Part shown: positions 3,856-13,280 of the stretch, in pieces
How the letters are laid out: each line of letters starts with the position of its first letter
Position numbering within the stretch: the stretch's first letter is position 1
Notes under the pieces: generated by a model
What the model saw: the letters and a program-made list of their open reading frames with translations, nothing else
What the model was told of the DNA's origin: nothing
Databases searched by the model: none
Made by a program: the position numbers and the translations under genes
Assembly (NCBI RefSeq): GCF_024138165.1
Contig: NZ_CP100001.1
Coordinates: 186,001 to 250,000, forward strand
DNA length: 64,000 nt
Origin: Halorussus vallis
GTDB taxonomy: Archaea; Halobacteriota; Halobacteria; Halobacteriales; Haladaptataceae
Direction: 5' to 3'

Positions 3856-4251
3856 CTACTCGCTCGCCCGTCGGATGTACCGCAGCAACCCCCGGATGGT
3901 CGCCTGGAGGTCTGCCTTGTCGACCGGTTTCTCCAGCAGGGTGTGGACCCCCCGGCTGAGCGCCTCCTCGCGCATCGCGGGCGGGATGGACGCCGCCAGC
4001 ACCAGCATCGGAATCCCGCGATCGTGGAGCTGTTCGCACCGCTTCCAGACGTCCTCGGTGAAGCCGTCGACGTCGAGGATGGCGAGCGCGATGTCGTCGC
4101 GGGTTTCGACGAGTCCGTCGAACTCGGGCATCGAGGTGGCGATCTCGACCGCGTACTCGCGTTCGCGGAGCATCTGGGCGAGGAGTTCGAGGTTGCGCTT
4201 CTGGCGGCCCAACGCGAGGATGAGCGCCGCTTTGCCCGAATCGTCGGTCAT
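3856..4251 (-). CDS. Stand-alone receiver-like protein lacking the acidic pair
   Basis: A 131-residue single-domain response-regulator fold. The phospho-acceptor position is Asp60 (AILDVDGF) and the conserved Lys is at 108 (LLEKPVDK). The usual pair of acidic residues after strand 1, which binds Mg2+, is replaced by Gly-Arg-Gln (ILALGRQK), so normal phosphotransfer is doubtful; it may be a pseudo-receiver used for protein-protein signalling. Its ATG overlaps the stop of a 42-codon ORF by ATGA, so the two are probably translated together. Confidence 0.75.
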   Translation of the reverse strand: MTDDSGKAALILALGRQKRNLELLAQMLREREYAVEIATSMPEFDGLVETRDDIALAILDVDGFTEDVWKRCEQLHDRGIPMLVLAASIPPAMREEALSRGVHTLLEKPVDKADLQATIRGLLRYIRRASE

Positions 4252-4536: not shown

Positions 4537-6231
4537 TCACCGTTCCCGTAACGAAACCGACCCGTTCGGCGAGACGAGTCGCGGGTTGGCCTGCGAGAGC
4601 GGGTGGGGCCGGAACCCCTCCACGTGGTCCTTGACGGCGAAACTGTTGTGGAGCGTGTACGCCGGGAGGTGGACGCGGTCCTCCAGAATCGTCGTGATGG
4701 CCTGCTCGTAGGCGCGCTTGCGCTTCTTCCGGTCGGTGGTCCGGCGAGCCTCGTCGATCTTGGCCATCACGTCGTCGTTCTTGTAGAACGTCCCGTTGGT
4801 CAGCCCCTCCATGTCCTCGTGGAACAGCGGGTAGAGGAAGGTGTCGGGGTCGGGGTAGCCCGACCACGACCCGACGTACATGGCGTAATCGGACTCGTCG
4901 CCGCTCATGACCATTTTGCGGAACTGGTCCCAGGGGTACTTCTTGGTCCGGGCCTTCCGGAAGCCGAGTTTCTTCAGGCCGTGGACGATGGACTCGGCCA
5001 GTTTCTCGCGCATCTTGTCACCCGAACTCTTCGTCCCGGGCACCGCGACGAGCGGGTTCCAGGTGCTGACGCCCGCCTCCTCCAGGAGGACCTTCGCCTC
5101 CTCCTCGTTCTTCCGGCGGGGGATGCCCTTCCACTTATCGAGGGGCATGTTCCACCGCTCGGCGAGGCGGTTCGGTAGCGGACTGTGCTGGCGCGCGCCG
5201 GTCGGTCCCACCTGGTCGAATCCCGGCGGCGTGACGATGTGCTTCGCGAAATCGTCCATCGATAGCAGGCAGTCGACCGCCTCCCGGACCTTCGGCGACG
5301 ACATCGGCTTGTCGCTGCAGTTGAAGCCGACGAAGTGGTAGTGGTAGCTCTTCGCGTGAGCGAGGTGGGACCCGCCGAACTGCTTCGTCGCGTCCCAGAG
5401 CTTCGGCTCGACCCGCTCGACGACGTCGTTCTGGCCGGTCTTCATGCTCATCGTGCGGGCGAGGCCGGCGTGGTTCGGCACGAACTTCACCTTCTCGACG
5501 GCGGGGTTCGTCCCCTCCCAGTAGTCCTTCCACGCCGACAGCACGGCGTACTTGCCGGGTTTGAGTATCTCGACCTCGTAGGGGCCCGACCCGATGGGTT
5601 CCTCCTGACCGAACGTCTGCGGACTCTTCCGGCGGACCGACTCCGGGACGATTTCGCGGGTCAGCACGTGGTCGAACGCCGGATATGGGTACTTCAGTTC
5701 GAACTCGACGCTGCGTTTGCCCGTCGCCGTCACCCCCTGCAGCATGTCGACCTGCCAGACCGTCGGCACCCGGCCGCCGCCCTCGTTCTGGCGGACCGGG
5801 ACCTCGTAGGTGTACTTCACGTCCGAGGCGGTGACCTGCGTGCCGTCCTGGAACGTCGCGTCTTTCCGGAGTTCGACGGCGTACTTCTTCCCGCCGGCCT
5901 TCTTCTTCGGTTTCCCCTTCGCGAGGACCGGCACGAGGCTCATCTGTCGGTCGTAGGCGTACAGTCCCTGGAAGACCAGCGAGGCCACCTGGGCCGACCA
6001 CGGGTCGTCGACGACCACCGGGTCGAGCGTTACCGGCGCGAGCACCTGCGCGTAGCGCAGCGTGCTCGCGCCCTGCTTGCCCATCACCTCCGCACAACCC
6101 GACAGCGACGCGCTCGCCGCCGTCGCGCCCGCCGCGCCCGCTCCCCGCAGGAGCGTCCGGCGGCTCAGCGTCTCGCGTGACGATTCGCCCGTCGCGATGT
6201 CGTCTTCGGTCGTCTGCGTGTCGTCGGTCAT
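4537..6231 (-). CDS. Family 5 ABC-type solute-binding lipoprotein, Tat-exported
   Basis: A 564-residue extracytoplasmic substrate-binding protein of the oligopeptide/dipeptide (SBP_bac_5) family. It starts with a Tat signal (SRRTLLRG, residues 23-30) and a lipobox LSGC with the lipidated Cys at 46. Body motifs typical of the family include DGTQVTASDVKYTYE and GSGPYEVEILKPGKYAVL. It binds peptides or similar solutes at the cell surface. It follows an APC permease gene with a 3-base gap, and no ABC permease or ATPase gene is nearby, an unusual pairing. An imperfect GC-rich hairpin at about 4473-4520 may terminate the transcript. Confidence 0.85.
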   Translation of the reverse strand: MTDDTQTTEDDIATGESSRETLSRRTLLRGAGAAGATAASASLSGCAEVMGKQGASTLRYAQVLAPVTLDPVVVDDPWSAQVASLVFQGLYAYDRQMSLVPVLAKGKPKKKAGGKKYAVELRKDATFQDGTQVTASDVKYTYEVPVRQNEGGGRVPTVWQVDMLQGVTATGKRSVEFELKYPYPAFDHVLTREIVPESVRRKSPQTFGQEEPIGSGPYEVEILKPGKYAVLSAWKDYWEGTNPAVEKVKFVPNHAGLARTMSMKTGQNDVVERVEPKLWDATKQFGGSHLAHAKSYHYHFVGFNCSDKPMSSPKVREAVDCLLSMDDFAKHIVTPPGFDQVGPTGARQHSPLPNRLAERWNMPLDKWKGIPRRKNEEEAKVLLEEAGVSTWNPLVAVPGTKSSGDKMREKLAESIVHGLKKLGFRKARTKKYPWDQFRKMVMSGDESDYAMYVGSWSGYPDPDTFLYPLFHEDMEGLTNGTFYKNDDVMAKIDEARRTTDRKKRKRAYEQAITTILEDRVHLPAYTLHNSFAVKDHVEGFRPHPLSQANPRLVSPNGSVSLRER

Positions 6232-6234
6232 GGT

Positions 6235-7542
6235 TCAGTCGTGTTCGAGTCCGGGAACGGCCTGTTCGATCGGCTCGCGCTCGAAGTAGATCAGTTCGGA
6301 GCCGACGACGACGATGCTGATGAGCAATACGAGGTAGAACGTGCCCGGGTCGTTGAGCCAGAGGTTGTAGAGTAACAGCGGGAAGAACAGCCCCGTGCCG
6401 ACCATCCCGACGACCGGCACCGGCGTCAGCAGGTCGTCGATGTCGTCGCGCTCGCGGAACGCGAGGTAGCTCATCGCGCCGAACACCGCGATGAACGCCA
6501 GCGACGCGAACGACGTTATCGACGAGAGGCTCCCGTAGACGGCGAACGCCGCCGACAGCGCGCCGAGGACGATCACGAGCTTCGAGGGGACCTCCTGGTC
6601 GCCGTCGCCCTGGAACTGCTGGGGGAGCAGTCCGCTGTCGATGAGGTCGCGGGAGAACTGCGCGCCGCTGAACAGCGTGGCGTTGACCGCGCTGGCGGTC
6701 GAGAACAGCGCCGACAGTCCGATGATGAACGCGCCCACCCGACCCATGAACGGGAGCGCGGCGTACAGCAGCGAAACCTCCGGAGCGACCGCGATGACCG
6801 ACAGTTCGAGGATGCTGACGGTGGTGAACGCCACGAGGACGTACAGCAGGGTCGCCACCGGAATCGAGAAGTAGATTGCCTTCCGGATGTTCTCCTCGGG
6901 GTTCTCGAACTGGTCCTGGTCGTACATCAGCAGTTGCCAGCCCTGGAACGCGACGAACGACATCGCCGCGCCGATGACGGGCGAGAAGCCCAGCGAGCCG
7001 AAGCCGAAGGTGAGCGTCTCGGCGGTGAAGGCGTACCAGACGCCCCAGACGCCGAAGCCGCCGATGACCACGACCTTGAAGAACGTCAGCACGTCCTCGG
7101 CTTTGCCAGTCTCGGAGGCCCCCATGAGGTTGAGGCCGACGAACGCCGCGATGAGCAGGACCGAGATGGTGTTGGCCACCGGGACGCCCATGAAGTGGAG
7201 TCGGCCGATCATCTCGGAGAAGAACGACGAGAACGCGTAGGCGTACAGCGCCATCGACCCGATGTAGCCGAACAGCAGCGTCCACCCCGTCATCCCGGCG
7301 ATGGTCGAGTTGCCGACGATGTCCTCGAGGTAGGTCGGCGCGCCGCCGTGGTCGTCGGTGAGTTCGTTCAGTTTGACGTAGCTGTACCCCGCGCACATGG
7401 CGATTCCCCCCGCGATGAGAAACGCGAGCCACGCGACCTTCCCGGCGATAGCCACGACGATGCCGAACGCGGAGTAGATGCCCCCGCCGATCATCCCCCC
7501 CAGCGCCATGGCTACGGCTTCCTTCAACCCTAGTTTCCCCAT
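6235..7542 (-). CDS. APC-superfamily amino acid permease
   Basis: A 435-residue integral membrane protein with about 12 hydrophobic segments and the helix-1 signature GGMIGGGIYSAFG (residues 15-27) of amino acid-polyamine-organocation transporters. It should move an amino acid or related solute by secondary transport. I chose the ATG at 7542 because it places helix 1 at the N-terminus; the longer open frame upstream is low-complexity. A TATA-like CTTAAATAG (7595-7603) lies about 55 bases upstream. The family 5 binding protein gene begins 3 bases after its stop, so they should be one transcript. Confidence 0.88.
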   Translation of the reverse strand: MGKLGLKEAVAMALGGMIGGGIYSAFGIVVAIAGKVAWLAFLIAGGIAMCAGYSYVKLNELTDDHGGAPTYLEDIVGNSTIAGMTGWTLLFGYIGSMALYAYAFSSFFSEMIGRLHFMGVPVANTISVLLIAAFVGLNLMGASETGKAEDVLTFFKVVVIGGFGVWGVWYAFTAETLTFGFGSLGFSPVIGAAMSFVAFQGWQLLMYDQDQFENPEENIRKAIYFSIPVATLLYVLVAFTTVSILELSVIAVAPEVSLLYAALPFMGRVGAFIIGLSALFSTASAVNATLFSGAQFSRDLIDSGLLPQQFQGDGDQEVPSKLVIVLGALSAAFAVYGSLSSITSFASLAFIAVFGAMSYLAFRERDDIDDLLTPVPVVGMVGTGLFFPLLLYNLWLNDPGTFYLVLLISIVVVGSELIYFEREPIEQAVPGLEHD

Positions 7543-8092
7543 CGCTAGAATGGACACCACTTTCGCCCGTGAATCTAACGGCAGACGGGGCAAGCTATTT
7601 AAGTGAGGAGATTGCAAACGCCTAGCTTCGTGTGAACGCCTCGACCGGCGGACGTCTCCTCGGTTCACGGCCGGGCGTCGGTCGGCCGCGTCGCCGGCTT
7701 TCGTTACTCCTCGCACTTTCATTACTTCCCATGCGCGCGGTGCCCGCGTTGCGGCGTGGGCGCTGCGCGCTAACTCACTCGATACGGCGCTCCGTATCGG
7801 TACGGTGTTCCGCGGCCTACATGGCGTCACACTCGCCGACGACCGCGGAGGAACCGACCGGGACCGCCGGCGAACCGAAACCGTCCCGCGGCCGACGCCC
7901 CCGGGACGGCGATGCGTGCCGAGCGCGAGCGAGGCGTGCATCGCGTAAGCGGAGCCTGACAGGTCCGAAATACGAGTACGATAGTCCTACATGAATTCAT
8001 CCGTCGCCTGACTGGACCCGTGAAAACCGCGGAAACCCGACAAACGGTGCATAACAAAGGGAAATACCGGAATACGATGGTCCACGAGTGCG
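7543..8092. other. 550-bp intergenic region between divergent transcription units
   Basis: No convincing gene. The open frames across it are Arg/Ala-rich and lack family features. It holds the permease promoter and a small inverted repeat (7780-7787 with 7792-7799, loop CGCT). Several further short GC-rich stems lie between 7720 and 7950, so a structured RNA cannot be excluded. The downstream part (7990-8090) is more AT-rich and should contain the promoter of the surface protein gene. Confidence 0.5.
7595..7603 (-). promoter_or_regulatory. TATA box for the permease / binding-protein operon
   Basis: Read on the minus strand this is CTTAAATAG, a good haloarchaeal TATA box 53 bases upstream of the permease ATG, implying a leader of about 25 nt. 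Confidence 0.5.
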
Positions 8093-11000
8093 ATGAATGT
8101 AAACAGAGCAACGATTGCGAGCGTCGCGCTGACGCTGCTGGTCGTCGTGTCCGCGATTCCGACCGGACTCGTCGGACTCACCGGGACCGCGAGGGCGGAC
8201 AACCCCGGCGGCGACTGGTACACCATCCGTCAGAGCGGCGAATGTATGGAAGTGCGGGCGTTCCCCGCCGACCATCCGAAGATGGTCCCCGAGGTCGTCG
8301 TTCGGGGGACGAACACGGTCGGCGACGTGACCGGCCCGTACAAGGACGAGGACTGGAACGGTCCCGAAACCATCGAGTCCATCATGGACTACCGCTACCG
8401 AGACGGCGACCAGGGCCAGACCAGTTACTACGCGCCGTACCTCAACAACCAGTACCGCTACGAGCCGTGGGAGTACGGCACCTACGGGCTGTACAACTGG
8501 TCGGCCAACGGCGAAAGCCACATGTTCTTCTACGAGAACGCCGACGGCGACGTGAGCATGGTCCTCCGCCACGACCGGATCTACGAGGAAACCGGAATCG
8601 CCTCTCACCGGAAGTACAACGGCGTCTACGGTAACGTCTCGGGCGACGGCTTCTTCGAGGAGTCGCCCGGCGGCGGTCGGGCCGACTTCACGTTCGACGG
8701 CCTCCCGAGCGGTGAGTGGGCGTACATCGACGATATGTACCGGCGCGCGGACATGGACGACGTCTACAACGACACCTCAGGGACCCGCTACGGCCACCGC
8801 GAGGCCAACTACACCTCCGAACCGCTCCGCGCGTACGATCCGACCGAGGACGGGGACACCTTCGACGTGCACTGGGAGTGGGGCCACGGCGGCACAGACG
8901 GTGGCGCCTACCGCGGTATGCAGAACCTCAACGGCGAAGCGCTCACCATCGACCCCGGATTCAGCAACGTCAATTCGTGGAAGGTCCGGACCAACGACGG
9001 CTCCGAGAACGGCGAGATGAAGACGCTTCAGATGGACCAGTCCCTCACCATCGAGGAGGGACGCAACTGCCTCGACTCGGACCTGAGCGCCGAACCGAGC
9101 GACACCGAGGCGGGCGGCGAGGTCACCTTCACCGCGTCGGGCGGCGGCGACGAGTACGCGTGGGACTTCGACGGTGACGGTGAGGTCGACGCGAACTCCA
9201 CGTCGAACCAGATCACCCACACGTACAACGCGAGCGGAACCGTTACCGCCGGGGTCACCATCACCGCCGACGGGGAGACGATAACCGCGTCCACGGAGGT
9301 GACGGTCGGGCCGAGCGAACCACCCTCGGCGAGCATCGGCGTGAGCGAAGGCGACGGCGAGAACGTGCCCGAACACCACGCCGTGGGCGAGCAACTCGTC
9401 TTCCAGGCCAACGCCTCCGACGAGGGTAGCGGCGTCACCAGCGACTACGTCTGGCGGGTCGACGGGGGCGAGAACCGGACCGGCGGCGACACCTTCACCC
9501 ACGCCTTCAGCGAGGCCGGCACGCACACCGTCAGCGTGACCGTCACCGACGGCGTCGGCAACCAGCGGACCGTCTCGACGGAGGTCGAGGTCGACGAACC
9601 CGACGGGACGAACCCCGAGGCTCGCGCCACGGCGACCCCGACGCGCCTGGAGGCGGGCGCGCCCGTCACCTTCAACGCCAGCGAGAGCACCGACAACTGG
9701 GGCGTCGCCTCCTACCGCTGGGAGTTCGAGGACGGCGCCACCGCGAACGGCGTGAACGCCACCCACGACTTCGACACGTCGGGCACTCACAACGCCACGG
9801 TGACAGTCGAGGACTACTACGGCAACACCGACACCGCGAACGTCTCCGTCGACGTGTTCGCGGCCGACACGCCCAGCATCGACCACGAGAACACGACCTT
9901 CCCGCGCAACGCGACCGAAGCCGGCACTCGGCTGACGTTCGAAGCGGTCGCGAGCGACAACGGGACGCTCACCTACGAGTGGCAGTTCCCCGGCGACGAA
10001 ACCAAGATGGGCAAGCAGGTCACCCACGAGTTCGCGGAACCCGGCGAGAAGTCGGTGCTGCTGGTGGTGCGCGACGCCGCCGGCCGCGAGGATAGAAAGG
10101 AGATGAGCGTCGAGGTGAACGCCGCGCCGGTCGCCAACCTCACGGCGTCACCCGAGATCGTCAACGCCAGCGAGACGGTCACGTTCGACGCCAGCGGGTC
10201 GAGCGCCCCCGACGGCGGGGAGATCTCGAAGTACGAGTGGGACCTCGACGGCGACGGAACGTACGACGAGGAGACGAGCGCGGAGAACACCTCCCTGTCC
10301 CACGCGTACCAGAACGGCGGCACGTTCACCGCGAAGGTCCGAGTCCACACGGAGAGCGGACTCAGCGACACCGACACCGCGCAGGTCGTCGTGAAGGAGA
10401 AGGAGGCCATCACGGACCCCGGCGGCGGTAACGGCGGGTCCGGCGGCTTCGTCGGCGGCGGTGGCGGCGGTGGCGGCACCGCCGAACCGCCGTCGGTCGT
10501 CTCGGACGTCCAGAAGCAGGGGGCGAACGCCGCGGTCGTCGACGTGCGGAACGCCCGCGCGGGCAAGACGGTCGGCGGGTCGCTCCCCGCATCGGCGGTC
10601 GCCGCCGAGACGGGCGTCTCCTTCGACCGGCTCGCGGTCACCTTCGGCGACGACGACAGTCACGCGGCGTTCCCGACGAAGGTCACCGCCGACGCGCCGA
10701 CGGGCGCGGCGGCGCTCTCGGACGCCGAGGCGCTGGCGTACCTCGAGGTCGACTCGAAGTACCTCGACGCGAGCCTCGACCGCGCGCGAGTCGAGTTCTC
10801 GGTGAACGAGAGCCGACTCGCCGGTCTGGCGAGCACCGAGGACGCGTCGCTGTACCGCTACGCCGACGGGTCGTGGGAGCGGTTGAACACCACCGTCGTC
10901 GAGCGGTCGGGCGACACCGCGCGACTGAAGGCGAGCGCCGACGGCGTCGGCACCTTCGCGGTCGGCGCGACGACCGCGCTCTCGGTCGCCGACGCGGAAC

Positions 11001-11638
11001 TCTCGCGGACGACCGTCGCGAAGGGCGGCACGGTCGAGGCGACCGTGGCGGTCGAGAACGCCGCCGACGCCGAGCGGTCGGCGACCCTCGACCTGACGCT
11101 CGGCGGCGAGCGCGTCGCGAGCGAGCAGGTGACGGTGGCCGCGGGCGAGACGAAGAACGTTACCCTGTCGGCCGACGCGCCTGCGACCGGAAGTTACGAG
11201 GTCGCGGTTTCGGGCACCGACCTCGGGTCGCTCACGGTCCAGAAGCGCCCGCCCGCAGACGCGGCGGGCGTGACCGACCTCTCGCTGAACGCCTCGACCA
11301 TCTCGGCGGGCGACTCGGTGGCCATCACCGCGACCGTCGAGAACACCGCCACCGTCGAGGTCACGAAGACCGTGACGCTGACGCTGTTCGGCGAGCAGTT
11401 GGCGACGAAGAACGTCACCGTCCCCGCGGGCGAAACCGAGCAGGTCCGGTTCGTCCAGCAGGTGGCCTCGTCGGGTGAGTACACGGTCGACGTCAACGGC
11501 GAGCGACGGAGCCTCTCGGTCCAGAGCGACCAGGAGAGCGACGGCCCCGTGGCGCCGGGAGTCCCCGGATTCGGCGTCGGCGTGACGCTGGTCGCGCTGG
11601 TCGCGGCCGCGCTCCTCGCGCGGTACCGGAGCGACTGA
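8093..11638 (+). CDS. PKD-domain surface protein with PGF-pre-PGF domain and PGF-CTERM anchor
   Basis: An 1181-residue exported protein. The order is: signal peptide (1-35); a haloarchaeal N-terminal domain of unknown fold (36-325) rich in Tyr, Trp and Asp; about five PKD-type Ig-like domains (roughly 330-770) with YAWDFDGDG, YRWEFEDG and YEWDLDGDG signatures; a Gly-rich hinge (773-800); a PGF-pre-PGF domain (about 800-965); two CARDB-like domains (966-1150); and a PGF motif (1158-1160), hydrophobic helix and basic tail. The C-terminus is the PGF-CTERM signal recognised by archaeosortase A, which replaces it with a lipid anchor. It carries many N-glycosylation sequons. It is probably an S-layer-associated adhesion or matrix protein. 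Confidence 0.88.
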   Translation: MNVNRATIASVALTLLVVVSAIPTGLVGLTGTARADNPGGDWYTIRQSGECMEVRAFPADHPKMVPEVVVRGTNTVGDVTGPYKDEDWNGPETIESIMDYRYRDGDQGQTSYYAPYLNNQYRYEPWEYGTYGLYNWSANGESHMFFYENADGDVSMVLRHDRIYEETGIASHRKYNGVYGNVSGDGFFEESPGGGRADFTFDGLPSGEWAYIDDMYRRADMDDVYNDTSGTRYGHREANYTSEPLRAYDPTEDGDTFDVHWEWGHGGTDGGAYRGMQNLNGEALTIDPGFSNVNSWKVRTNDGSENGEMKTLQMDQSLTIEEGRNCLDSDLSAEPSDTEAGGEVTFTASGGGDEYAWDFDGDGEVDANSTSNQITHTYNASGTVTAGVTITADGETITASTEVTVGPSEPPSASIGVSEGDGENVPEHHAVGEQLVFQANASDEGSGVTSDYVWRVDGGENRTGGDTFTHAFSEAGTHTVSVTVTDGVGNQRTVSTEVEVDEPDGTNPEARATATPTRLEAGAPVTFNASESTDNWGVASYRWEFEDGATANGVNATHDFDTSGTHNATVTVEDYYGNTDTANVSVDVFAADTPSIDHENTTFPRNATEAGTRLTFEAVASDNGTLTYEWQFPGDETKMGKQVTHEFAEPGEKSVLLVVRDAAGREDRKEMSVEVNAAPVANLTASPEIVNASETVTFDASGSSAPDGGEISKYEWDLDGDGTYDEETSAENTSLSHAYQNGGTFTAKVRVHTESGLSDTDTAQVVVKEKEAITDPGGGNGGSGGFVGGGGGGGGTAEPPSVVSDVQKQGANAAVVDVRNARAGKTVGGSLPASAVAAETGVSFDRLAVTFGDDDSHAAFPTKVTADAPTGAAALSDAEALAYLEVDSKYLDASLDRARVEFSVNESRLAGLASTEDASLYRYADGSWERLNTTVVERSGDTARLKASADGVGTFAVGATTALSVADAELSRTTVAKGGTVEATVAVENAADAERSATLDLTLGGERVASEQVTVAAGETKNVTLSADAPATGSYEVAVSGTDLGSLTVQKRPPADAAGVTDLSLNASTISAGDSVAITATVENTATVEVTKTVTLTLFGEQLATKNVTVPAGETEQVRFVQQVASSGEYTVDVNGERRSLSVQSDQESDGPVAPGVPGFGVGVTLVALVAAALLARYRSD

Positions 11639-12851: not shown

Positions 12852-13280
12852 GTGACCGTCGTCAGTATCTCGATGCCCGACGAACTGCTGGAGCGCGTGG
12901 ACGACTTCGCCGGCGAACACGGCTACACCGGCCGGAGCGAGGTGTTCCGGGAGGCCGCGCGCAACCTCCTCGGGGAGTTCGAGGACAAGAAACTGGAGGA
13001 CCGCAAACTGATGGGCGTGGTGACGGTGCTGTTCGACTACGAGAGCACCGGCGTCGAAGAGCGGATGATGCACCTGCGACACGACCACGACGAACTCGTC
13101 ACCTCCAACATCCACAACCACGTCGGCGACCACTACTGCATGGAACTGTTCATCCTCGAAGGGACGCTGGCCGACATCTCGACGTTCGTCGGCAAGATAC
13201 GGGCGACCAAGGACACGCTCACGGTCGACTACTCGGTGACGCCAGTCGACGGGTTCGGTCCGATGACGACCGTCGAGTAG
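12852..13280 (+). CDS. nikR: NikR nickel-responsive regulator
   Basis: A 142-residue ribbon-helix-helix repressor with the NikR ligand-binding domain. The N-terminal [16 protein letters not shown] and [13 protein letters not shown] form the RHH DNA-binding unit. The nickel ligands match E. coli NikR spacing exactly: His77, His88, His90 and Cys96 (H-x10-H-x-H-x5-C). It should repress nickel uptake genes when nickel is bound; none are in this window. The start is GTG, with a TTTTAATA tract immediately before it. Confidence 0.93.

Follow-up and report, generated by a model that had tools for sequence, protein, structure and literature searches.

A conserved APC permease and solute-binding protein gene pair in haloarchaea suggests a two-part nutrient importer

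An APC-family permease gene and the family 5 solute-binding protein (SBP) gene next to it recur as a unit in haloarchaea, and we propose that they encode a two-component, ATP-independent importer in which the SBP would donate its ligand to the permease. We put the probability of this reading at about two in three. Judged from sequence, the pair most likely forms a binding-protein-dependent secondary transporter whose membrane part is a LeuT-fold (APC) permease.

The locus and its conservation

We analysed a stretch of 64,000 nucleotides from Halorussus vallis, here called the window. A preliminary description of it had reported a permease gene followed after 3 bases by a family 5 binding protein gene, with no ABC genes nearby. 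Both observations held: the two reading frames lie on the minus strand, and no ABC permease or ATPase genes adjoin them. The features of the locus are as follows.

6235–7542, minus strand: APC-family (AA_permease_2) amino acid permease, 435 aa (open reading frame and Pfam; nearest solved relative MjApcT)
4537–6231, minus strand: family 5 SBP, 564 aa (open reading frame and Pfam; twin-arginine signal, lipobox Cys46)
6232–6234, minus strand: gap of 3 bases separating the permease and SBP frames
7594–7603, minus strand: CTTAAATAGC, which we take to be TATA-like by its resemblance to the consensus; possible promoter for both genes, some 60 bases before the start of the permease gene
7075–7077, minus strand: codon of permease Lys156 (TM5), aligned with the MjApcT lysine that is Ala in the 3gi8 chain
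6753–6768, minus strand: permease EL4/TM8 stretch with L259, Y260 and L263

In Pfam, the permease scored 108.7 bits against PF13520 (AA_permease_2; cut-off 27) and the SBP 193.8 bits against PF00496 (SBP_bac_5; cut-off 32.4). The permease matched the NCBIfam model TIGR00909 (2A0306) with 140.2 bits, below the curated cut-off of 556.8. All its profile matches were to APC-type models; none was to the DctQM- or TctAB-type models of TRAP and TTT systems. Its best solved match was MjApcT (MJ0609; E = 7.7e-43), homologous over nearly the whole length, and by this homology the membrane partner is a secondary transporter. The SBP begins with RRTLLRGAGAAGATAASASLSGC, which holds a Tat motif and a lipobox; together with the SBP_bac_5 domain, these signals fit the exported SBP that binding-protein-dependent secondary transport calls for. 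A structure prediction for the SBP from a 15-row alignment gave a poor model (pLDDT 58.5, pTM 0.48). The gap of 3 bases leaves no intergenic room for a separate SBP promoter; the two genes are probably co-transcribed and translationally coupled.

We searched for both proteins in 146 relatives and then in 392 genomes of the order, and compared the gene places. Among the 150 SBP places and 145 permease places listed, there were 31 same-strand SBP/permease neighbours in 30 genomes, with the permease first in 11 and the SBP first in 20. One extra pair (G244/L245) was found on reading the neighbours. The pair with an intact SBP occurs at 29 further loci in other genomes, and two additional pairs carry a partial or broken SBP (G065/L071 and G140/L072). 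No fusion of the two proteins was seen among the loci read. The pair spans several haloarchaeal families in both gene orders; its confinement to this genome, which the preliminary description had named as refuting its proposal, is thereby excluded. Among 13 bacterial loci, an APC match was seen in none and Dpp genes in four.

Two of the 11 permease-first neighbours, G203 (L097) and G383 (L107), were rejected as pairs and counted as ABC-linked, since a complete SBP-DppBCDF cluster follows the APC gene at a distance of about 300 bases. These APC genes (L097, 7799–9148; L107, 6839–8440) are of the unpaired type. They could be a step towards the SBP-APC association, or an independent case of it.

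The pairs fall into two clades. Clade A, with the permease first, comprises G000 (the genome of the window), G017, G020, G021, G022, G026 (two copies), G069 and G131. Clade B, with the SBP first, comprises G055, G081, G213, G224, G228, G239, G244, G248, G254, G287, G323, G325, G331, G334, G335, G337, G340, G352, G370, G376 and G391. A scan of named genomes found pairs of either clade in 10 records, among them Haladaptatus halobius (two pairs), Haladaptatus salinisoli, Halegenticoccus soli and Haloferax massiliensis for clade A, and Halalkalicoccus, Haloterrigena, Natrialba and Natrinema records for clade B. The linkage is conserved at close range, with frames 2 to 18 bases apart or overlapping by 4. 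Both arrangements occur in clade A (loci with clear starts); in clade B the 4-bp overlap was seen in 10 of 20 loci, with start codons set mechanically. A regular expression for the Tat-lipobox matched 27 of 28 SBPs of the pairs.

The genes that flank the pair vary between loci, and its adjacency persists in both orders. No gene family was present across most pair loci besides the pair itself and its antisense ORFs. One partner is broken in some lineages (G020, G325, G224 and G140): the permease of G020 is shortened, and the permease matches of G325 and G224 contain stops. In one metagenome-assembled genome (L160), only the C-terminal piece of a clade-A-like SBP is present, and no permease was matched within 12 kb.

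Several other genes lie near the pair. In the window, a response-regulator receiver protein gene (3856–4251) lies downstream. In the syntenic locus of G017 (L039, 10678–12595), the SBP gene is followed on its strand by a KaiC-like ATPase gene and a response-regulator gene, in that order; the window lacks the KaiC-like gene and has the regulator only. Divergent from the permease gene is a large surface protein (8093–11638), which matches PKD five times and PGF-CTERM weakly, and a similarly large ORF stands at the equivalent place in L039. A NikR-type regulator (12852–13280; NikR_C and RHH_1) is encoded about 5 kb from the pair; similar proteins are also encoded in L039, close to the pair, and in L080, close to an unpaired permease.

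A single lineage of binding proteins

In a tree of 61 SBPs, clades A and B each formed a clade and jointly formed one, with a support of 100. In a FastTree of 137 SBPs, the 30 APC-linked SBPs again formed a clade of their own (support 100), which held no further tip. The remaining 107 comprised 87 beside DppB/DppC and 20 beside neither ABC nor APC genes; this survey of partners covered all but about a dozen of the 150 listed SBP places. Twenty further loci with weaker SBP relatives, three of them (G505, G573 and G614) from outside the order, were all ABC-linked. Together, the trees and these ABC-linked relatives make the APC linkage a property of one SBP lineage, and on the SBP side the sequences speak for a single origin of the pairing. 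None of the 30 APC-linked SBPs had a same-strand DppBC-type neighbour, and no ABC permease or ATPase gene adjoined them.

The nearest relatives of the paired SBPs are the SBPs of DppBCDF systems. This would be expected under the main rival reading: that the orphan SBP supplies a DppBCDF-type ABC importer whose genes lie elsewhere, and that it shares no more than a transcript with the permease, which would take up related amino acids. Haloarchaeal family 5 SBPs without local ABC genes do exist (20 of 137). However, the paired clade always has an APC neighbour, whereas none of the 20 orphans has one; on reading the neighbourhoods, no hidden transporter partner was evident near them either.

The residues also set the paired SBPs apart from the orphans. 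We chose 16 positions whose residue is fixed in 90% or more of the ABC-linked SBPs and retained in no more than 10% of those in clades A and B; the orphans were not used in the choice. The orphans nevertheless keep 270 of 320 cells (0.84) at these ABC-type positions, which the paired SBPs have lost. A second set of 15 positions, chosen against ABC-linked plus orphan SBPs, was kept in 7/135 cells of clade A, 4/315 of clade B, 1243/1305 of the ABC-linked SBPs and 284/300 of the orphans, the low values in A and B following from the choice. Outside the paired lineage, no clade of 3 to 60 tips had lost more than 7 of the 15. The paired SBPs have drifted more overall as well: at 113 positions fixed in ABC-linked SBPs, 0.72 were kept in A, 0.69 in B and 0.92 in the orphans.

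Each of the ten top-scoring BPD permease genes of G000 lies near its own family 5 SBP, so that no Dpp system of this genome is evidently short of one. No BPD_transp_1 gene was seen on the replicon of the window (G000:C2) among the matches listed (down to E ≈ 7.6e-15, the best 96 of which were used in the comparison). That G000 has no Dpp system evidently in need of an SBP weakens the rival, as does the residue evidence, and we consider it unlikely.

The orphans themselves are L191–L196, L200–L203, L208, L218, L221, L223, L225, L227, L246, L251, L254 and L126, with no same-strand ABC or APC genes nearby. A clade of 12 orphan SBPs, mostly of genus code g7, sits amid one small recurring set of neighbour ORFs, and L223, L246, L251 and L254 adjoin genes resembling S9-type peptidases, as read from sequence. 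Another type of orphan family 5 SBP, of about 600–620 aa, occurs at G000:C1:3085772-3086989 (L005, L175), G000:C2:506046-507278 (L007, L176), L177 (G017) and L178 (G131). Both copies in G000 open with a twin-arginine motif, but their first 60 residues contain no lipobox cysteine. In the stretches examined around this type, neither Dpp nor APC genes were matched.

Seven of the 16 lost positions fall at 431–455, just ahead of the conserved DPD motif (461–463). We take this region to line the ligand site in OppA/DppA, and the losses suggest that the ligand of the paired SBPs may have changed. The core domain and the DPD motif are retained, so that the paired SBP still looks like a ligand binder.

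This retention bears on a second rival, no more probable than the first: like SLC3 with SLC7, or BasB/CosB with a transducer, the SBP could be a permanent accessory or sensing subunit. It would then have a gating, stabilising or ligand-reporting role and would donate no substrate. APC permeases with such partners are known. SLC3 is an accessory partner of the APC-type SLC7. LysP-CadC pairs an APC permease with a sensory partner (PMC12764776), and haloarchaeal SBPs co-purify with transducers (PMC3579733). Against this reading stand the ligand-binder look of the SBP and the neighbourhoods of the pairs, in which no transducer gene was recognised. The preliminary description had likewise left a choice between a hybrid uptake system and a signalling use of the SBP. 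Hybrid uptake is the option best supported by the sequences, given a conserved pair and a single SBP clade without ABC partners; signalling gained no positive evidence, and no third gene family common to clades A and B was recognised besides a regulator-like ORF family at 5 of 30 loci.

The permease and its energy coupling

Unpaired relatives of the permease are about 44–56% identical to that of the window and adjoin other genes; no SBP or Dpp match was found in their stretches, G203 and G383 excepted. A tree of 46 permeases placed clades A and B together. They were apart in a tree of 66 rows, where a tree constrained to A+B was not rejected (p-AU 0.604) and had the higher likelihood. From the permease sequences, the pairing could have arisen once, with a change of gene order, or twice, independently.

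Fifteen residues are common to the A and B permeases and rare in unpaired ones, as compared with 2 to 11 in five control groupings. They include L259, Y260 and L263 in EL4/TM8; the corresponding LLYxxL pattern is missing from the unpaired haloarchaeal relatives examined. With TM borders set by hydropathy and by hand, the identity of the extracellular loops at a TM identity of 0.6–0.7 was 0.61 in clade A (7 comparisons), 0.58 in clade B (15) and 0.44 in unpaired permeases (159), the comparisons being non-independent. At a TM identity of 0.8–0.9, clade B showed no excess (extracellular loops 0.76 versus cytoplasmic loops 0.78, again from non-independent comparisons).

In the alignments of the permease with MjApcT, a single TM5 residue distinguishes the chains 3gi9 (K) and 3gi8 (A). 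We take the Ala of 3gi8 to be the K158A variant of the proton-coupling lysine of ApcT, presumably Lys158. The equivalent position, Lys156 in the window permease, is K in 9/9 permeases of clade A and 37/37 unpaired permeases, and Q in 20/20 of clade B. Clade A thus keeps the TM5 lysine of ApcT-like proton-coupled transporters, whereas clade B lacks it. On these residues, clade A is expected to be proton-coupled and clade B to be coupled otherwise.

Distances between SBPs and between permeases within the pairs were correlated (r = 0.94, 406 comparisons, no species-tree control). That the two are independent proteins kept together for joint regulation only is the least probable of the alternatives: no biochemical link between them is known and one partner is broken in some lineages, but they stay adjacent in both gene orders despite differing flanks, every member of the SBP clade in the tree has a permease gene beside it, and the second G026 pair groups with the G020 pair in both the SBP and the permease trees.

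Proposed mechanism and significance

In the importer that we propose, the Tat-exported, lipid-anchored family 5 SBP would capture a small organic solute outside the cell (an amino acid, a short peptide or a relative of these). The liganded SBP would dock on the external face of the neighbouring APC permease and pass the ligand over, and the permease would carry it inward by the alternating-access cycle of the LeuT fold. The driving force would probably be protons in clade A (TM5 Lys) and something else in clade B (Gln). We infer the docking, the hand-over, the ligand and the coupling ion from the features described above.

Each half of the pair resembles a known system. The SBP is homologous to the DppA, OppA and NikA types and close to haloarchaeal DppBCDF-linked SBPs. 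Unlike in DppABCDF and other peptide ABC importers, which share the family 5 SBP, it has no ABC permeases and ATPases to accompany it: adjoining same-strand ABC genes are absent from all 30 paired loci, and 15 to 16 ABC-type positions are lost. The permease is homologous to ApcT (MJ0609) over nearly its full length and keeps the TM5 lysine in clade A, but differs from ApcT in the Gln of clade B; LLYxxL at EL4/TM8 sets it apart from the unpaired haloarchaeal relatives examined. To our knowledge, no single-component APC transporter uses an SBP. APC permeases have the LeuT fold and are not elevators.

As in TRAP and TTT systems, an SBP would serve an ion-driven membrane part; here, however, that part is unrelated and matches the AA_permease families. 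The preliminary description had named these two as precedents; its list was incomplete. According to PMC12344293, TRAP and TT were the only SBP-dependent secondary transporters known before TAXI-GltS of Bordetella pertussis (BP0403-BP0402), which that paper described in 2025 with measured ligand binding. All three kinds are elevators or thought to be so. The Discussion of the paper asks why other secondary transporters have no SBPs, raises an elevator mechanism as a possible requirement, and regards new classes as a test. In TAXI-GltS, a borrowed type of SBP is genetically linked and, in the paper's words, translationally coupled to a usually solitary secondary transporter (PMC12344293); our pair is alike in its linkage and probably in its coupling. 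It differs in that an ABC-type family 5 SBP is joined to a LeuT-fold APC permease, whereas there a TAXI SBP is joined to GltS, thought to be an elevator. No report of an SBP-APC permease system was found in the open-licence literature.

Some haloarchaea are genetically modifiable, which makes the system tractable. By the fold of its permease, the pair is a direct test of the elevator requirement: an SBP-dependent LeuT-fold APC permease, if true, would contradict the proposed need for an elevator mechanism in SBP-dependent transport. An SBP of this kind is easily taken for an ABC component, and our reading of the pair would change the annotation of such loci. The sequences suggest that the conserved APC-SBP unit is a new kind of two-part nutrient importer.
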